Source: Candidatus Altimarinota bacterium (GTDB lineage Bacteria; Patescibacteriota; Gracilibacteria; BD1-5; UBA6164). Taken from it: DNA of 64,000 nucleotides. The DNA is taken from NCBI GenBank assembly GCA_019454605.1, contig JACFNZ010000003.1, positions 1-64,000 on the forward strand, written 5' to 3'. The notes under the pieces are model-generated. The model did no database searches, was not told where the DNA came from, and saw only the letters and a list, made by a program, of their open reading frames with translations. This document shows positions 2,794 to 58,273 of this stretch, one piece after another (position 1 is the first letter of the stretch; each line of letters opens with the position of its first letter). The position numbers and the translations under genes were made by a program.

Positions 2794-3531
2794 ATGATTA
2801 ATATTTTAAAAAAATTATGACTTTCAGAAGATGAAGCAAAAATCTATTTATTTTTAATAAAAAATCAAAACAAAAACCTATGAGAAATATCAAAAAATAC
2901 TTTATTAAACAGACCTAAGTTATATAAAATATTGCCAAATATGTTAAAAGAAGGTATTTTATCAAGTGTTATAAATTGAAAAAGAACTCATTATATAGCA
3001 CAAGATCCTCAAATATTATCAAATTATTTCACAAAATTTAAAAATGATTTTGAGTTATTTTTACCACAAATAACAAAAGAATACAAAAATCAAGATAAAA
3101 AAATAATTTTGAAAAATATAAAATGAAAATCTTGAATAAAAAATATATTTTTAGATATAGCTCAAACATTAAATAAGTGAGATATATTTTATCGTTATAG
3201 CTCAAGATCTGATATAAAAAATACCTCTTTATCTAAAAAAGACTATGAAGAATATAAAGTATTAAGAGAACAAAAAAAATTAGAAAGATATGTTATAACT
3301 AGTGAGTTTTTAGAATGATTAAAGCCTAAAAGATTAGAAAAAGATGTTGTTATAATTCCTCCAAAATATGATTTATTTCAATACAATATTACAAAAATAA
3401 TTTATGCAAACAAAGTTGCTATAATAGATTATAACACTTATGAAAGCTTTATAATTGAAAATGAAGTTTTTGCTACATTTGAAAGAAAAATATTTATGAT
3501 GTTATTTAAACTTTTAAAAAAAACTAGTTAA
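2794..3531 (+). CDS. TrmB-like winged-helix transcriptional regulator
   Basis: 245 residues. Residues 1-75 fit the TrmB/PadR-type winged helix of sugar-sensing regulators: LKKLGLSEDEAKIYLFL, then a helix-turn-helix ending in NRPKLYKILPNMLKEGIL and a wing. The rest is an effector-like domain ending in YANKVAIIDYNTYESFIIEN, also typical of this family. Such proteins bind operators near their own gene, and an inverted repeat lies immediately upstream. No sugar transporter or enzyme is adjacent, so the ligand is unknown. The stop overlaps the convergent rlmH stop by a few bases. Confidence 0.75.
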
Positions 3532-26399: not shown

Positions 26400-26418
26400 A
26401 TTACTTAACAAATTAAAT

Positions 26419-27111
26419 ATGGCAAAAAGAGGTAAAAAATATAATAAAGCTATAGAATTTATAAATCAAGATATAGCTTATTCTACAGCAGAAGCTTGTG
26501 ATTTACTTGAAAAAACTAATACTGTAAAATTTGATCCTACAGTTGAAGTTCATTTTAACTTAAACTTAGATCCAAAATATGCTGATCAAATGATTAGAAC
26601 TACTATATCTCTACCAAACTGAACTGGTAAAATTACTAAAGTTTGTGCTTTTTCTGATACTATTTCAGAAGCTGATTTAAAAAAAGCTTGAGCAGTTGTT
26701 GCTTGAGGTGAAGATTTAATCAATGAAATAGCTTTAGGAAATATACCACTTGACTTTGATGTTTGTGTTGCTACTCCTTCAATGATGAGACAAATGTGAA
26801 AAATAGCTAGAGTACTTTGACCTAAAGGACTTATGCCAAATCCAAAAACTTGAACTGTTTGAGATGATTTAGTTTCAATAGTAAAAGAAATTGCTGCTTG
26901 AAAATTTGAATTCAAAACTGATAAACAATGAAATATCCACTCTATTTTTGGTAAACTATCTTTTGGTAAAGATAAATTACAGGCAAATTTAGATAAATTT
27001 ATAGCTACTGTTAAAGAAGTAAAACCTTCTTGATCAAAATGAAAATATGTAAACACTGTTTATGTATGTAATGCTATGTGACCTTCTATAAAACTTGATA
27101 TCCAAGGTTAA
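26419..27111 (+). CDS. rplA: ribosomal protein L1
   Basis: 230 residues. MAKRGKKYNKAIEFI, VEVHFNLNLDPKYADQMIR and GPKGLMPNPKTGTVGDDL are conserved. L1 forms the mobile stalk that moves deacylated tRNA. Not next to rplK as in most bacteria; it has its own promoter, a structured leader and a terminator. The one GGT near the C-terminus contrasts with the TGA and GGT/GGA mixture in the body. Confidence 0.97.
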
Positions 27112-52609: not shown

Positions 52610-53437
52610 CTATGAGTCTTTTTGTTTGTTTTGTCATAATGTTTTTTTAAGAAATAAATATCATCTTAATAACGGGGAAATTAATTCTAATTTTTTTTTG
52701 AAATTTACTAAACCATTCTCTAAAATATGTTTATTTGTAAATTCACTTCAATTGTAACCAATATTATAAAAATTGCAAAATTTTGTTATGTTCTTAATTT
52801 CTTCATGTATATTATAATCTTTTTTTCAAAATAAATGTGAATCATTATTATCTTTTTCACATATATAAAGCTTTAAAGATTTGTTTTTGTTTGCCACTAT
52901 GTAAATATTTTCAATTGAATTATAAAAACATTCAATAAATTTATCAAGTGGAACATTTCTCTCTTCATTTAACTCTCTTAAATAAGTATAATAATAAGAA
53001 ATATAAGGATTTTGAAAAATAAAATATATTTCTATCCTTCTTTTCTTTTTAATACAGTTTTCTATATTTCTTTTTGCATGAACTAAACTTTTAAAAGTTC
53101 CATCAAGAATAAATTTTATCTCATTTTGAAAGCAATATTTTAAAACATGATTTACGACACTACTCATAGCACTTTGATACTTGTGAGCATTACTTCATTT
53201 ATATCCCTCAAAATAGCTTCTATAACTATCAATATCTACAAAAAAGAAGTCTAAGTTCTTTGGAAGTGATTTGATAAATTCAGTTTTTCCAGCTCATGGA
53301 GCTCAAGCTAAAAATATTACAGAAGTTTTATCATTATTTTTTATTTTAAATTTATCTCATCATTTTATAATTTGGTTAATTATGATTTCTGAAACTTGCA
53401 AGATTCAATTTTCTGTTGTTGGAAATTTAGTAGACAT
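52610..53437 (-). CDS. zeta-toxin-like P-loop kinase
   Basis: 275 residues. Walker A is AGAPGAGKTEF near residue 47; it is followed by FFVDIDSYRSYFEGYK (acidic-Tyr-Arg sequence as in zeta toxins) and FILDGTFKSLVHAKRNI (corresponding to the substrate-side EGT/DGT region). Zeta toxins phosphorylate UDP-GlcNAc or other nucleotide-sugar-like substrates and poison wall synthesis; some relatives are toxins in other systems. The last 60 residues are basic. The gene follows the S24 repressor gene by 16 bases. No epsilon-type antitoxin is visible; the repressor may play that part. Confidence 0.75.
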
Positions 53438-53453
53438 ATGAGAGTATTAAAAA

Positions 53454-54062
53454 CTAAATTTTTCATAAATTTTTTTCAAAAATACCTTGAATAATTAAAT
53501 TTTCTGTCACAATTATCGTTTTATTTGCTGGATTAGTAGACCTGGGAATAAGTTTTATGATTCAATTTTCTTTTCTAAATTCTTTTAAAGTTGCACTATC
53601 ATCTATTAAAGCAACAACAATATCTCAATTACTACAATCTGTATTATGTCTAATTAAAATAATATCTCAATCTTCAATTCCTATTTTATTCATACTATCT
53701 CAATTTGCTCTAAGTAAGAAATAATTATTATTTCCTTTTATCATATTTTCTGATATAGGGAAATAGGTTTCAATATTTTCTTGAGCTAAAATAGGTCATC
53801 AACAAGCAATATCTCAAATTAAAGGAATTAACTTTGTTTTTATATTTAAAATTCAATTTTCTTTAATGAGTTCGATTTTTCAGTCAATATTAATAAAAAG
53901 TTTTCAGTTTTCTTTTAATCTTTCAATTGATAATTGAACAGATCTTAAAGATTTTTCCATTCAAAGCATTCTAGATACCTTTCTTACAGATACTTTTTCA
54001 TTATTTGATATTAAATTTTTTAATGTTTCTAAAACTTGTAAATCTAAGTTATAAAGTCACAT
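53454..54062 (-). CDS. S24-family repressor (LexA/CI/UmuD type)
   Basis: 202 residues. The N-terminal 65 residues form a winged-helix or HTH segment (LDLQVLETLKNLISNNEKVSVRKVSRML). The C-terminal S24 domain has the self-cleavage site region LIGDIACGGPILAQ (Cys-Gly, as in UmuD), the catalytic serine GDSM and the lysine in DSATLKEFRK. Such repressors are cleaved after RecA activation on DNA damage. Co-transcribed with the zeta-like kinase; divergent from the Pycsar-like genes across a shared promoter region with a dyad. Inferred to repress one or both units. Confidence 0.88.
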
Positions 54063-54260: not shown

Positions 54261-55079
54261 ATGACACAAAGTTTATATTTAGATTCTGTAAATGGTATAG
54301 TAAATGATGCAAAAACTATATTTCAAAACCCCATTTCTATAACTGATAGAAATACTTTACCAGCAGATTGAAATTATAAAATGAATAGTTGGTATAAAAT
54401 AAAAGATATAGTATCTATTTTTGTAGACATAAGATGATCTACAAAACTGAGTGCTACACTTCATGAAAAATCTACAGCATCAATTTATGAATTATTTACA
54501 GGAACAGCAATAAAGATATTCCATGAAATGTGAGCAGAATATATTGATGTCAAATGAGATGGAGTTTTTGCATTATTTAGTGCAAATAAAATTTATACAG
54601 CTTTATCATCTGCTATAACTTTCAAAACATTTGCTCAGAGGACTTTTAAGGTGTTGATTGATAAAAAATTTGAGTGAAAAAATATTGATATTTGATTTCA
54701 TATGTGAATTGACCAAAAAACTGTTTTAGTTAAGCAAATTTGACTAAAAGATAGTGATAGAAGAGATAGAAGAAAAAATGAAGTTTGGGCTTGAAAACCT
54801 GTAAATATGTCAGCTAAATTAGCATCATTATCAAATGATTGAGAATTAATAGTTTCAGATAGATTTTTTAAAAATTTATGAAAAGAGGAGTTGATTTTAA
54901 AATCTTGTTGATGTTGTAATGAAAAAGAAACAGGGGAAAAAGTAGATTTATGGGAAGAGGTAGACTTATCACAAAATGATAAATTTGATTTTGATAAAGC
55001 ATATATGTTAAAAAGTATGTGGTGTTCTACACATTGAAAAGAATGGTGTCAAAAAATAATTCAATTAGATAATAAGTAA
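54261..55079 (+). CDS. class III nucleotide cyclase, Pycsar PycC-like
   Basis: 272 residues. Cyclase homology domain at about 40-215: first metal Asp in IFVDIRGSTKLS, second in DVKGDGVFALF, and the later nucleotide-binding segment NEVWAGKPVNMSAKLASL. The C-terminal tail has a cysteine cluster (SCGCCNEKE, then MWCSTHGKEWC) that could bind zinc. In Pycsar systems this type of cyclase makes cCMP or cUMP on phage infection and activates the adjacent effector; base specificity cannot be read by eye. The next gene, 9 bases away, is a match for the membrane effector. Both glycines next to the metal-binding Asp residues are partly TGA. Confidence 0.85.
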
Positions 55080-55088
55080 AATCAAACT

Positions 55089-55577
55089 ATGAAAAATAAT
55101 ATAGACTTTCTTCAAAATGAGCTTATTAGAATAAGTGAATGGTTAAGATTTATAGAACAAAAATTGATTTTATTATCTGCATATTATTGACTATGAATAA
55201 GTTATATAGCTCAAAATATACAGGACATAAAAAGAATTTTTCAAGAAAATAGTTGTATAAAAATTTTTATATTTCTTTATTTTATTTTTACTTTAATATT
55301 ATGAATATATTTTCTATTTAGAGTAATTTTCCCAAACTTTAAAAATAATTCTAATAATAAGTCTTTTTTCTTTTTTAGACATATTTCAAATATGAAAATA
55401 TTAGACTATGTAAAAGATTTTCAAATATTAACAATTAAAGAAAAAGAAAATCAAATTTTAGAGCAGATACACATAAATTCAACTATTGCAAATGAAAAAA
55501 TGAATAATATAGCTTATGCATTTAAGATATTATTTATTAATTTATTATTTTTCTTTATTACTTTATTTACTATTTAA
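55089..55577 (+). CDS. Pycsar membrane effector-like protein (PycTM / DUF5706 type)
   Basis: 162 residues. Three hydrophobic segments: about 25-42 (KLILLSAYYGLGISYIA), 58-82 (IKIFIFLYFIFTLILG...) and 143-162 (AFKILFINLLFFFITLFTI). The second is followed by FFFFRHI and the amphipathic helix DYVKDFQILTIKEKENQIL, the order seen in the DUF5706 effector domain (membrane pair, FFGHI-like turn, helix, last membrane segment). Such effectors disrupt the membrane once a cyclic pyrimidine nucleotide binds. Adjacent to the cyclase gene in one operon. Recognised from fold order and context; remote homology should be tested. Confidence 0.8.
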
Positions 55578-55702
55578 AGGAGTAGGCTTCTTCTTCAAAA
55601 CTTGCAAATTTAAGCTTTTTTAATAAATTAAGTTAGTCGCATGGACGACTATAAAATTATTTTTTAACTTAAAAATATGTTAAAACTACTTTTGAGAGTG
55701 GC

Positions 55703-55843
55703 ATGTCCAACGAATATTGGCAATTATCTAAATTTAAATTTATACTAGTTTATTTAAGAGGTTATATTGTTAGTTCTGCTGGAGTAGGTTTTGAAATGAA
55801 AACTGATAGGGAAAAGAAGGTTTTTACTAGTAATTATAACTAA
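55703..55843 (+). CDS. possible small protein of 46 residues
   Basis: MSNEYWQLSKFKFILVYLRG..., all glycines by GGN codons with no TGA, and Trp by TGG. No family recognised. It lies within the candidate ncRNA; either may be real. Codon use differs from the neighbouring genes. Confidence 0.25.
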   Translation: MSNEYWQLSKFKFILVYLRGYIVSSAGVGFEMKTDREKKVFTSNYN

Positions 55844-55875
55844 ATCTTTCCCCGTGCGACTCCAAAAATAACTCT

Positions 55876-55914: not shown

Positions 55915-55993
55915 TTAAACTTGAATTTCTTTAAAAAAATCATAAACTACAAAAGCCAAAATTACAAATTTTACATTACTTAACAAATCAAAT

Positions 55994-56041
55994 ATGGAGG
56001 GTTTAATTATCCTTTCCTCTAAATATTCATTTGTTGAGTAA
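55994..56041 (+). CDS. putative leader peptide upstream of the methyltransferase
   Basis: 15 codons (MEGLIILSSKYSFVE), ending exactly where the long hairpin arm (56042) begins. The first codons contain a 12-nt segment complementary to the loop of that hairpin. This order of leader ORF, alternative pairings, terminator and gene resembles transcription attenuation. Not proven coding. Confidence 0.35.
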   Translation: MEGLIILSSKYSFVE

Positions 56042-56156
56042 AAAGTTGTAGTTTTGGCGAACATTAAGGTGATTAAATCCTCCTTTTTGTTTGCTAAAAC
56101 TACAACTTTAAAAAACCTTTTATTTTGGCACCTACTTTAACAGTAAGTGCTTTTTT
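55996..56156 (+). promoter_or_regulatory. attenuator-like leader of the methyltransferase gene
   Basis: Three pairings are seen. (a) 22-bp stem 56042-56063 with 56088-56109, two G-U pairs. (b) 55996-56007 (GGAGGGTTTAAT) with 56072-56083 (ATTAAATCCTCC), the latter within the loop of (a), so the two can make a pseudoknot or alternate. (c) hairpin GCACCTACT / AGTAAGTGC (56128-56150) followed by TTTTTT and then directly the methyltransferase ATG: an intrinsic terminator in front of the gene. Regulation by conditional termination is inferred. Confidence 0.6.
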
Positions 56157-57140
56157 ATGACAAAGAAATCTTGAAATTCAAATTTAAGAAAAGCTAATAA
56201 AGCTAAAAATGATGAATTTTATACTCAAATTAATGATATTGAAAATGAGCTAAAAAACTATAAACATCACTTTAAAGATAAAATAGTTTTTTGTAATTGT
56301 GATGATCCAGAATACTCTAATTTTTTTAGGTATTTTGTATGAAACTTTAAGCATTTATGACTTAAAAAACTTATTACCACTCACTTTCATGAGCAAAAAC
56401 AAACCTATAAAATAGAAGTAAATTCTAAAAATATTGATGAAATCACAAAATATATTAAAAACCTTTCTCTTTTTGAAAATTGAGAAGTATTTAAACATTT
56501 CTGAGAGAAACTTTCTTGAAATGGTGATTTTAGAAGTAATGAAAGTATAGAGATATTAAAAATATCAGATATAGTGGTAACAAATCCACCATTTTCACTT
56601 TTTAGAGAATATATAGCTCAGCTTTATGAATATGATAAAAAGTTTTTAGTTTTATGAAATATGAATGCTATAACATATAAAGAGATTTTTCCTTTAATAA
56701 AAGAAAATAAACTTTGGTCATGATATGGGTTTAATATGAGTTTAGTTTTTGAATCAATCTATGAAAATACTCTTGAAGCAAATGTTAATTTTTGTAAACA
56801 AAAATGATATTTTTGAAAAAATTATATAAAAACTCCAGCTATAAATTGGTATACGAACCTAGAGCACAACAAAAGAAATGAAAAAATGATTTTATATAAA
56901 ACTTATCTTTGAAATGAAGAGTATTATCCAAAATATGATAATTATGATGCTATAAATATAGATAAAGTAGCAGAAATACCACTTGATTATAAATGAGCTA
57001 TGTGAGTTCCTATAACTTTTATAGATAAATATAATCCTGAACAATTTGAGATAATTAAATTTAGAAAATGAAATGATGAAAAAGATTTAGTTGTAAATTG
57101 AAAAAGTCCCTATTTTAGAATATTAATTAAACCTAAATAA
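56157..57140 (+). CDS. EcoRI-type adenine-specific DNA methyltransferase
   Basis: 327 residues. KDKIVFCNCDDPEYSNFFRYF at the N-terminal end of the catalytic domain, GDFRSNESIEILKISDIVVTNPPFSLFREYI with the catalytic NPPF (near 150), and LVLGNMNAITYKEIFPLIK are characteristic of the EcoRI methylase family (m6A). The rest is target-recognition sequence. Followed after 26 bases by a DUF262-HNH nuclease gene, so a restriction-modification or related defence pair is likely. The ATG directly follows a T-tract of a terminator-like hairpin. Confidence 0.9.
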
Positions 57141-57166: not shown

Positions 57167-58273
57167 ATGCAAATACAACTCCATGAAATCACTATAAAAG
57201 AACTTACCACTTGATACATAAATAATCAAGAAGAATGAGTTATTTGACTGAATTGAAAGCTAAATATAAGACCAAAATACCAAAGAGAGTTTGTGTATGA
57301 TGACAAAAAAAGAAATGCAGTTATTGAAACTATCAAAAAAGATTTTCCACTTAATGTAATGTATTTTGTAGAAAATGAAGATAATACACTAGAAGTTCTT
57401 GATGGTCAACAAAGAACTATAAGTATTTGTGAATATGTTGAGTGAAATTTTTCTCTTGAAAACAGATATTTTCATAATCTTACAGATACTGAAAAAAATC
57501 AAATCCTTGATTATAAATTGATGGTGTATTTTTGTAAATGAACTGACAAAGAAAAACTTGATTGGTTTCAAACAATAAATATTGCTTGAGAAAAACTTAC
57601 TCCTCAAGAATTAAGAAATGCAGTTTATACTTGAGAATGGTTAACAGATGCAAAAAGACATTTTTCAAAAAGCACTTGTCCAGCATATGGATTATGAGAA
57701 AAATATATGACTTGAAGTCCTATCAGACAAGAATATTTAGAAAAAGTTATTTCTTGGATAAATAACTGAAAAATTGAAGAGTATATGTCAATTCATCAAC
57801 ACAACAAAGATGCAAATGAGATTTGGCAATATTTTCAAGATGTAATTGCTTGGATTAAAAAACTATTTCCTGATTATAGAAAAGAACAAAAATGACTTGA
57901 ATGGTGAGTATTTTTTAATAAATACAAAAATAATTTATACAACACAAATACTTTAAAAACAGAAGTTGAAAAACTTATGCAAGATGATGATGTGACTTCT
58001 AAAAAATGAATTTATGAATATTTACTTTCTTGAGATGAAAAACACTTAAGTATAAGAACTTTTAGTGATACTCAAAAAAGACAAGTTTATGAAACTCAAG
58101 GTGGAATTTGTGCTTTATGTATAAAAAAATGAAAATCAAAAGATGAAAGTCATTTTGAGATTAATCAAATGGAAGCAGATCATATCACTCCTTGGAGTCA
58201 GTGAGGAAAAACCTCTATAGATAATTGCCAAATGCTTTGTAGAGAGTGCAATAGAAGAAAAAGTGATAAATAA
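57167..58273 (+). CDS. DUF262-HNH endonuclease
   Basis: 368 residues. DUF262 (ParB-like/GmrS-related NTPase-type) segment: RPKYQREFVYDDKKRNAVI and LEVLDGQQRTISICEY (DGQQR signature) at 27-100. A helical middle part is followed by a C-terminal HNH domain: [41 protein letters not shown] (the HNH His-Asn-like set with two Cys pairs binding zinc). DUF262 proteins include the GmrSD and BrxU nucleases that cut modified DNA. Here it is paired with an m6A methyltransferase, so it would either cut unmethylated DNA or require methylation. No specificity is visible. Confidence 0.85.

Follow-up and report, generated by a model that had tools for sequence, protein, structure and literature searches.

The window, i.e. 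the whole 64-kb stretch of DNA analysed here, belongs to a 1.0 Mb genome of the Gracilibacteria type, in which TGA is read as glycine (table 25). It contains an operon for restriction and modification (R-M), in which a methyltransferase gene is followed by the gene of a putative Type II restriction enzyme, as called by PADLOC. Immediately 5' of the operon lies a Pycsar pair at 54261-55577, consisting of a PycC cyclase and a PycTM effector (PADLOC E 5e-104 and 8e-26), forming a small defence island. Further upstream, on the minus strand (52610-54062), a Zeta-toxin-fold protein adjoins an S24/LexA-like protein, possibly as a toxin unit with a repressor.

In front of the methyltransferase, the first-pass annotation had described a 15-codon frame, a 22-bp hairpin right after its stop codon, a loop segment complementary to part of the frame and a terminator at the ATG. 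All four are indeed located there, and the loop complementarity, GGAGGGTTTAAT (55996-56007) with ATTAAATCCTCC (56072-56083), widens to 55996-56011 with 56068-56083. They are the visible part of a conserved RNA element that spans 55955-56156 of the window and additionally comprises a hairpin around the frame (HP1), the 5' segment a1 and a closure of a1 with a segment at the base of the terminator (P1'). The features are as follows:

55921-55926 and 55943-55948, plus strand: promoter, TTGAAT and TAAACT with a spacing of 16 nt; the arrangement is recurrent in other copies
55955-55972, plus strand: a1, GCCAAAATTACAAATTTT, predicted 5' end of the transcript (position relative to the promoter, partner swap, growing-chain folds)
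55976-56041, plus strand: HP1, with a 13-bp stem (55976-55988/56029-56041) and segments A and B in the loop (fold; same architecture in orthologues)
55994-56041, plus strand: 15-codon frame MEGLIILSSKYSFVE, from ATG 55994 to TAA 56041, inside HP1; not conserved
55996-56011, plus strand: A, partner of A' in the HP2 loop or, locally, of B (A:A' covariation, partner swap)
56013-56020, plus strand: B, weaker local partner of A within HP1 (fold; inspection of other leaders)
56042-56109, plus strand: HP2, 22-bp hairpin with arms 56042-56063 and 56088-56109 (covariation, prefix folds)
56045-56058, plus strand: a1', in the 5' arm of HP2; a1'' sits in the 3' arm
56068-56083, plus strand: A', complement of A in the HP2 loop, with a T run after it (covariation)
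56122-56129, plus strand: P1', ATTTTGGC, complementary to a1 and overlapping the terminator base (GCC/GGC compensation)
56128-56156, plus strand: predicted intrinsic terminator, stem 56128-56150 and T6 56151-56156, abutting the methyltransferase ATG at 56157 (counts in R-M leaders compared to the window)
56157-57140, plus strand: M.EcoRI-family adenine methyltransferase, TGA read as Gly (PF13651, E 6e-121; PADLOC MTase_II)
57167-58273, plus strand: GmrSD_N (DUF262) and HNH nuclease, putative restriction enzyme (PF03235 and PF01844; PADLOC REase_II, E 1e-129)

The 221-nt leader folds with -65.6 kcal/mol, compared to -32.7 +/- 3.7 kcal/mol for dinucleotide shuffles (z -9.0), none of 200 of which was as good. 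As a1 starts 6 nt past TAAACT, with the -35 hexamer 16 nt upstream of the latter, it is assigned as the predicted 5' end of the RNA. The spacing is kept in other copies: in 55 of 60 elements a1 is preceded, at a distance of 5-9 nt and mostly of 6-7 nt, by the end of a -10-like hexamer, and the -35 hexamer, most commonly TTGCAA (25 exact), lies 15-17 nt upstream of the -10. A promoter-like copy similar to that of the element (CTTCAAAACTTGCAAATTTAAGC...) is also found in the non-coding stretch at 55578-55870, which is perhaps a decayed second copy.

SD-like 4-mers are lacking within 22 nt of the ATG in all 57 genes of at least 120 aa in the window. The GGAGG of the leader is hence unlikely to be a ribosome-binding site. 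Sequestration of an SD sequence by pairing of GGAGG with CCUCC was rejected on the same count and because A is not GGAGG in most copies. The gene leaders in the window are AT-rich, some with TTAACTTAA-like stretches. A further strong hairpin with a T-rich tail (2750-2794, -9.7 kcal/mol) ends just 5' of the ATG of the gene at 2794-3531; it has no match to the covariance models of the element.

Distribution of the element and its genes

Covariance searches detected about 95 copies of the element in about 50 Gracilibacteria genomes. A first model (R1), which covers the 22-bp hairpin through the ATG and was built on 16 seeds, has matches in 37 of 353 genomes of the class; a second model (R2), built on 56 copies, has matches in 59 of them, mostly of the same order, the weakest being doubtful. 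In 380 genomes across the phylum, including G000, R1 matched G000 and none of the other 379. Records with the full architecture found by a strict pattern are MAGs named 'Candidatus Gracilibacteria' or 'Patescibacteria', plus one 4.35-kb contig binned as Flavobacteriaceae (L107 600-760), where the full element may reflect mis-binning or transfer. Strict-pattern matches in Desulfofustis, Oribacterium, a Bacteroidetes MAG and Geobacillus were discarded as simple terminators lacking the architecture. As to a viral origin, the pattern, which is a strict one, is absent from 2.9 million viral contigs. When the window and ten other loci were scanned with Rfam 15, all matches were below threshold and attributable to chance, none coming near the gathering score, and no report of such a leader was found in the open-access full-text literature. 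Judging by sequence, the leader represents a family of folding RNAs that had not been catalogued before.

The possibility that the hairpins are missing upstream of orthologous methyltransferases does not hold, as at least 17 of ~25 methylase loci carry the same leader with a different sequence, in two families. A third methylase family has a diverged form of the leader at two loci, and several methylase loci, e.g. L009, L021 and L031, do not have the same leader. Within the genome of the window, a second copy precedes a C5 methylase and a third (L084) a membrane protein. One contig (L091 461-1050, G001:C16) contains a full element followed by a 154-aa gene, and the next gene on it is preceded by just the 3' half of a second element; the arrangement reflects either duplication or recombination within the element.

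About 34 of 96 copies lie in front of R-M genes, as assigned by inspection and Pfam, a share that is inflated because the R1 seeds were methylase leaders; the R-M matches outside the EcoRI family were not among these seeds, except L003. The R-M genes comprise the M.EcoRI family, C5 methylases, N6/N4 methylases including Type III Mod-like ones, a ResIII/HsdR protein and a Tsp45I nuclease, and the element is found in front of genes of Types I, II and III. The other copies precede genes for pilin-like N_methyl proteins, subtilases with TPRs, an SNase, zinc-ribbon/TM2 proteins, and secreted or membrane proteins without assignment. Given the genes it precedes, the element is not a methylase-specific device but a cis-acting RNA of general use in this lineage. 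Autoregulation by the methylase via its own recognition site is unlikely for the same reason, as non-R-M genes and unrelated methylases also have the element in front of them.

A terminator with a T run at the ATG is present in 33 of 34 R-M leaders and 29 of 62 other copies, compared to 3 of 57 genes in the window by the same test, one of which is the methylase described here. In the lone R-M exception, L061, which has the same leader as L017, an insertion precedes the terminator, which lies further downstream. In several non-R-M copies the hairpin is AT-rich and no T run follows it. The conditional termination predicted by the first-pass annotation hence gains from the recurrence of the hairpins, the loop pairing and the terminator with compensatory changes, while its restriction to the methylase operon is not borne out, given the pilin-like, subtilase, nuclease and zinc-ribbon genes.

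Conserved and mutually exclusive pairings

On a MAFFT alignment of 56 copies (A2), made independently of the A:A' model, RNAalifold predicts unaided only A:A', with 10 of 11 pairs being compensatory; the columns 34/139 contain C-G 16 times, U-A 16 times and G-C 15 times. For A:A' and HP2 together, A2 has 218 doubly changed cells, compared to 69 in shuffled and 33-57 in slid controls. On a 102-row covariance-model alignment, which is fitted to the A:A' structure and includes a few antisense and partial matches among its rows, two-sided changes are seen in all 16 pairs of A:A', with 324 doubly changed cells compared to 92 shuffled and 33-64 slid. No shuffle reached the covariation score of A:A'. 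The pseudoknot or switch suggested earlier from this single locus is thus corroborated, as the loop pairing and both hairpins recur with compensatory changes before orthologous methyltransferases; the structure lies well below shuffles in energy, and covariation is present in both A:A' and HP2.

In a partner swap, segments were exchanged between loci with equal freedom to pick the best duplex (10000 permutations). Own and swapped partners gave -27.1 and -14.8 kcal/mol for A:A', -15.1 and -9.1 kcal/mol for a1:a1', and -17.0 and -10.4 kcal/mol for a1':a1'', with 0 of 10000 permutations being as good in each case. The fact that a1' has two mutually exclusive partners, a1 and a1'', is thus conserved according to both swaps and covariation. 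For the a1-P1' contact the values are -14.8 and -12.8; the conserved sequence of this contact makes the test less sharp here. The contact does show compensation, GCC occurring with GGC or GGT in 37 elements and GCT with AGN in 13. G-U pairs (166) are tolerated ~17 times more often than A-C pairs (10), which indicates that the RNA of this strand, and not a DNA site, is selected.

Conservation near the HP2 loop is limited to GAACA, a short AG-rich stretch and the U run, and these are largely paired in the model. No conserved unpaired core clearly stands out as a ligand site.

A predicted transcription switch

The sequence data show the promoter position, the terminator, and pairings that are conserved and exclude each other. 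Together with the folding models, these features make it probable that the leader belongs to a new family of cis-acting RNAs and works as a transcription-attenuation switch. Transcription would start at a1, and in the growing chain a1 would pair with a1' to give one long hairpin that encloses HP1. Should this shape persist, a1 is held by a1' and cannot block the terminator, which would therefore form and stop the polymerase just before the methylase ATG. If a1'' captures a1' instead, HP2 would form and a1, which repeats the sequence of the HP2 3' arm and thus competes with it, would be set free to pair with UUUUGGC at the start of the terminator. This would weaken the terminator and allow transcription of methylase and nuclease. 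Through A:A', HP1 is linked to the HP2 loop, and this pairing probably determines the balance or reacts to a signal. We infer that termination is conditional, that A:A' favours one of the shapes and that a signal exists.

In the growing-chain folds HP1 appears first, followed by the long a1:a1' hairpin at 100-140 nt, HP2 after a1'' at 160-180 nt, and finally the closure of a1 on P1'. The effect of a1 pairing on the terminator is a computed one: when a1 was masked, the median probability of the closing pair of the terminator increased from 0.54 to 1.0, with a rise in 31 of 32 R-M leaders. In folds of the full-length leader, terminator and a1 closure are often partly present together, as their overlap is only 2-3 nt. 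The calculations exclude the A:A' pseudoknot, which energy models cannot score, and its duplex of about -27 kcal/mol could shift the balance.

The third methylase family (L023, L033) has a terminator of different construction, a1'' being its 3' arm. For L033, a1:a1' forms when a1 is free, with a terminator probability of 0.74, while masking a1 leads to a1':a1'' and a terminator probability of 0.00. In silico, the two lineages hence agree by different contacts: termination accompanies a1:a1', and read-through a1':a1''. A simpler subtype (L155, L157, L161, L164) has a1:a1', HP1, A:A' and a 5-bp mini-hairpin AAACA/UGUUU without a long a1''; it precedes zinc-ribbon, subtilase and TPR genes. This subtype suggests that the core fold consists of a1:a1' and the A:A' pseudoknot, and this core might be stabilised by a signal, giving termination. 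As about half of the non-R-M copies have no clear terminator and some have no long a1'', the output mechanism is not uniform.

The same RNA could instead act on translation, with the hairpin that abuts the AUG blocking ribosome loading until the switch opens it. In R-M leaders the hairpin ends ~5-12 nt before the AUG, access to an AU-rich leader may matter where SD motifs are missing (0/57), and the AT-rich hairpins without a T run point in the same direction. However, at least four Ts within 7 nt past the hairpin in 33 of 34 R-M leaders, and separate terminators before the gene in L168, L169 and L171, argue for a transcriptional output, and we consider translational control unlikely.

Alternating pairings followed by a terminator before the gene are also the anatomy of antisense-controlled attenuators of the pT181/pIP501 kind, in which a counter-transcript or trans RNA sets which hairpin forms. 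A and A' differ between copies of the same genome in many genomes (cross -17.2 vs own -27.2 kcal/mol), and therefore one shared trans RNA cannot fit all, although some paralogues share A and A', e.g. in G001 and G030. The antisense matches of the models are explained by self-complementarity. Such control seems quite improbable. We give slightly less credit still to a constitutive structure that stabilises the mRNA or fixes a partial read-through without any signal. The diverse downstream genes and the lack of a known ligand or regulator would fit it, but the two exclusive conserved partners each of a1' and a1 are hard to explain by stability alone.

Two other readings can practically be dismissed. 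Leader-peptide attenuation, in which translation of the 15-codon frame would govern the hairpins, draws on the context of ATG 55994, which resembles that of rplA (26400-26422; 96% identity over 23 nt); it is refuted as a family property by the frame itself, since an ATG frame of at least 6 codons is found in only 22 of 69 leaders, with no common position or sequence. A DNA-level site, e.g. for recombination or a cassette, could be suspected from the half element on L091, but the G-U tolerance, the fixed promoter spacing and the sense-side location just before a gene speak against it.

Relation to known systems and biological meaning

Like terminator-platform riboswitches, the element is a promoter-proximal structured RNA with a pseudoknot or loop-loop pairing, exclusive helices and a terminator before the first gene. 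It differs from them in having no known ligand or Rfam 15 match, in its 12-16 bp loop pairing of freely changing sequence, and in that its genes are R-M and surface genes and not one metabolic pathway. In purine riboswitches a closing helix holds two parallel hairpins joined at their loops. The predicted read-through shape has the same topology, with closing helix, two hairpins and loop-loop pairing; the likeness is one of topology only, as the element has no conserved junction core and a far longer kissing helix. In pT181/pIP501 attenuators a 5' segment pre-empts the antiterminator, letting the terminator form. Pre-emption by a 5' segment is also part of our model, whereas the pairing partners here are copy-specific and show no sign of a shared antisense RNA.

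Control of R-M systems is a standing puzzle, since the nuclease must not outrun the methylase. As in known R-M regulation, it is the expression of methylase and nuclease that would be controlled here. The regulation described so far involves C proteins, methyltransferase autorepression, promoter methylation, antisense RNA and start-site hairpins (PMC12707154); the text of that article contains neither 'riboswitch' nor 'attenuat', and it does not describe an RNA switch in front of operons of Types I, II and III.

More tentatively, the element could be a new riboswitch class, found only in Gracilibacteria, that responds to a cellular signal and uses attenuation for the joint control of all R-M types and of cell-surface or secreted genes. 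It is a concrete candidate for such a class, as two models, about 95 members and clear, testable predictions are at hand. A conserved RNA switch in front of unrelated R-M systems would imply that these were wired into a host-wide RNA circuit after their acquisition, in a lineage with reduced genomes.
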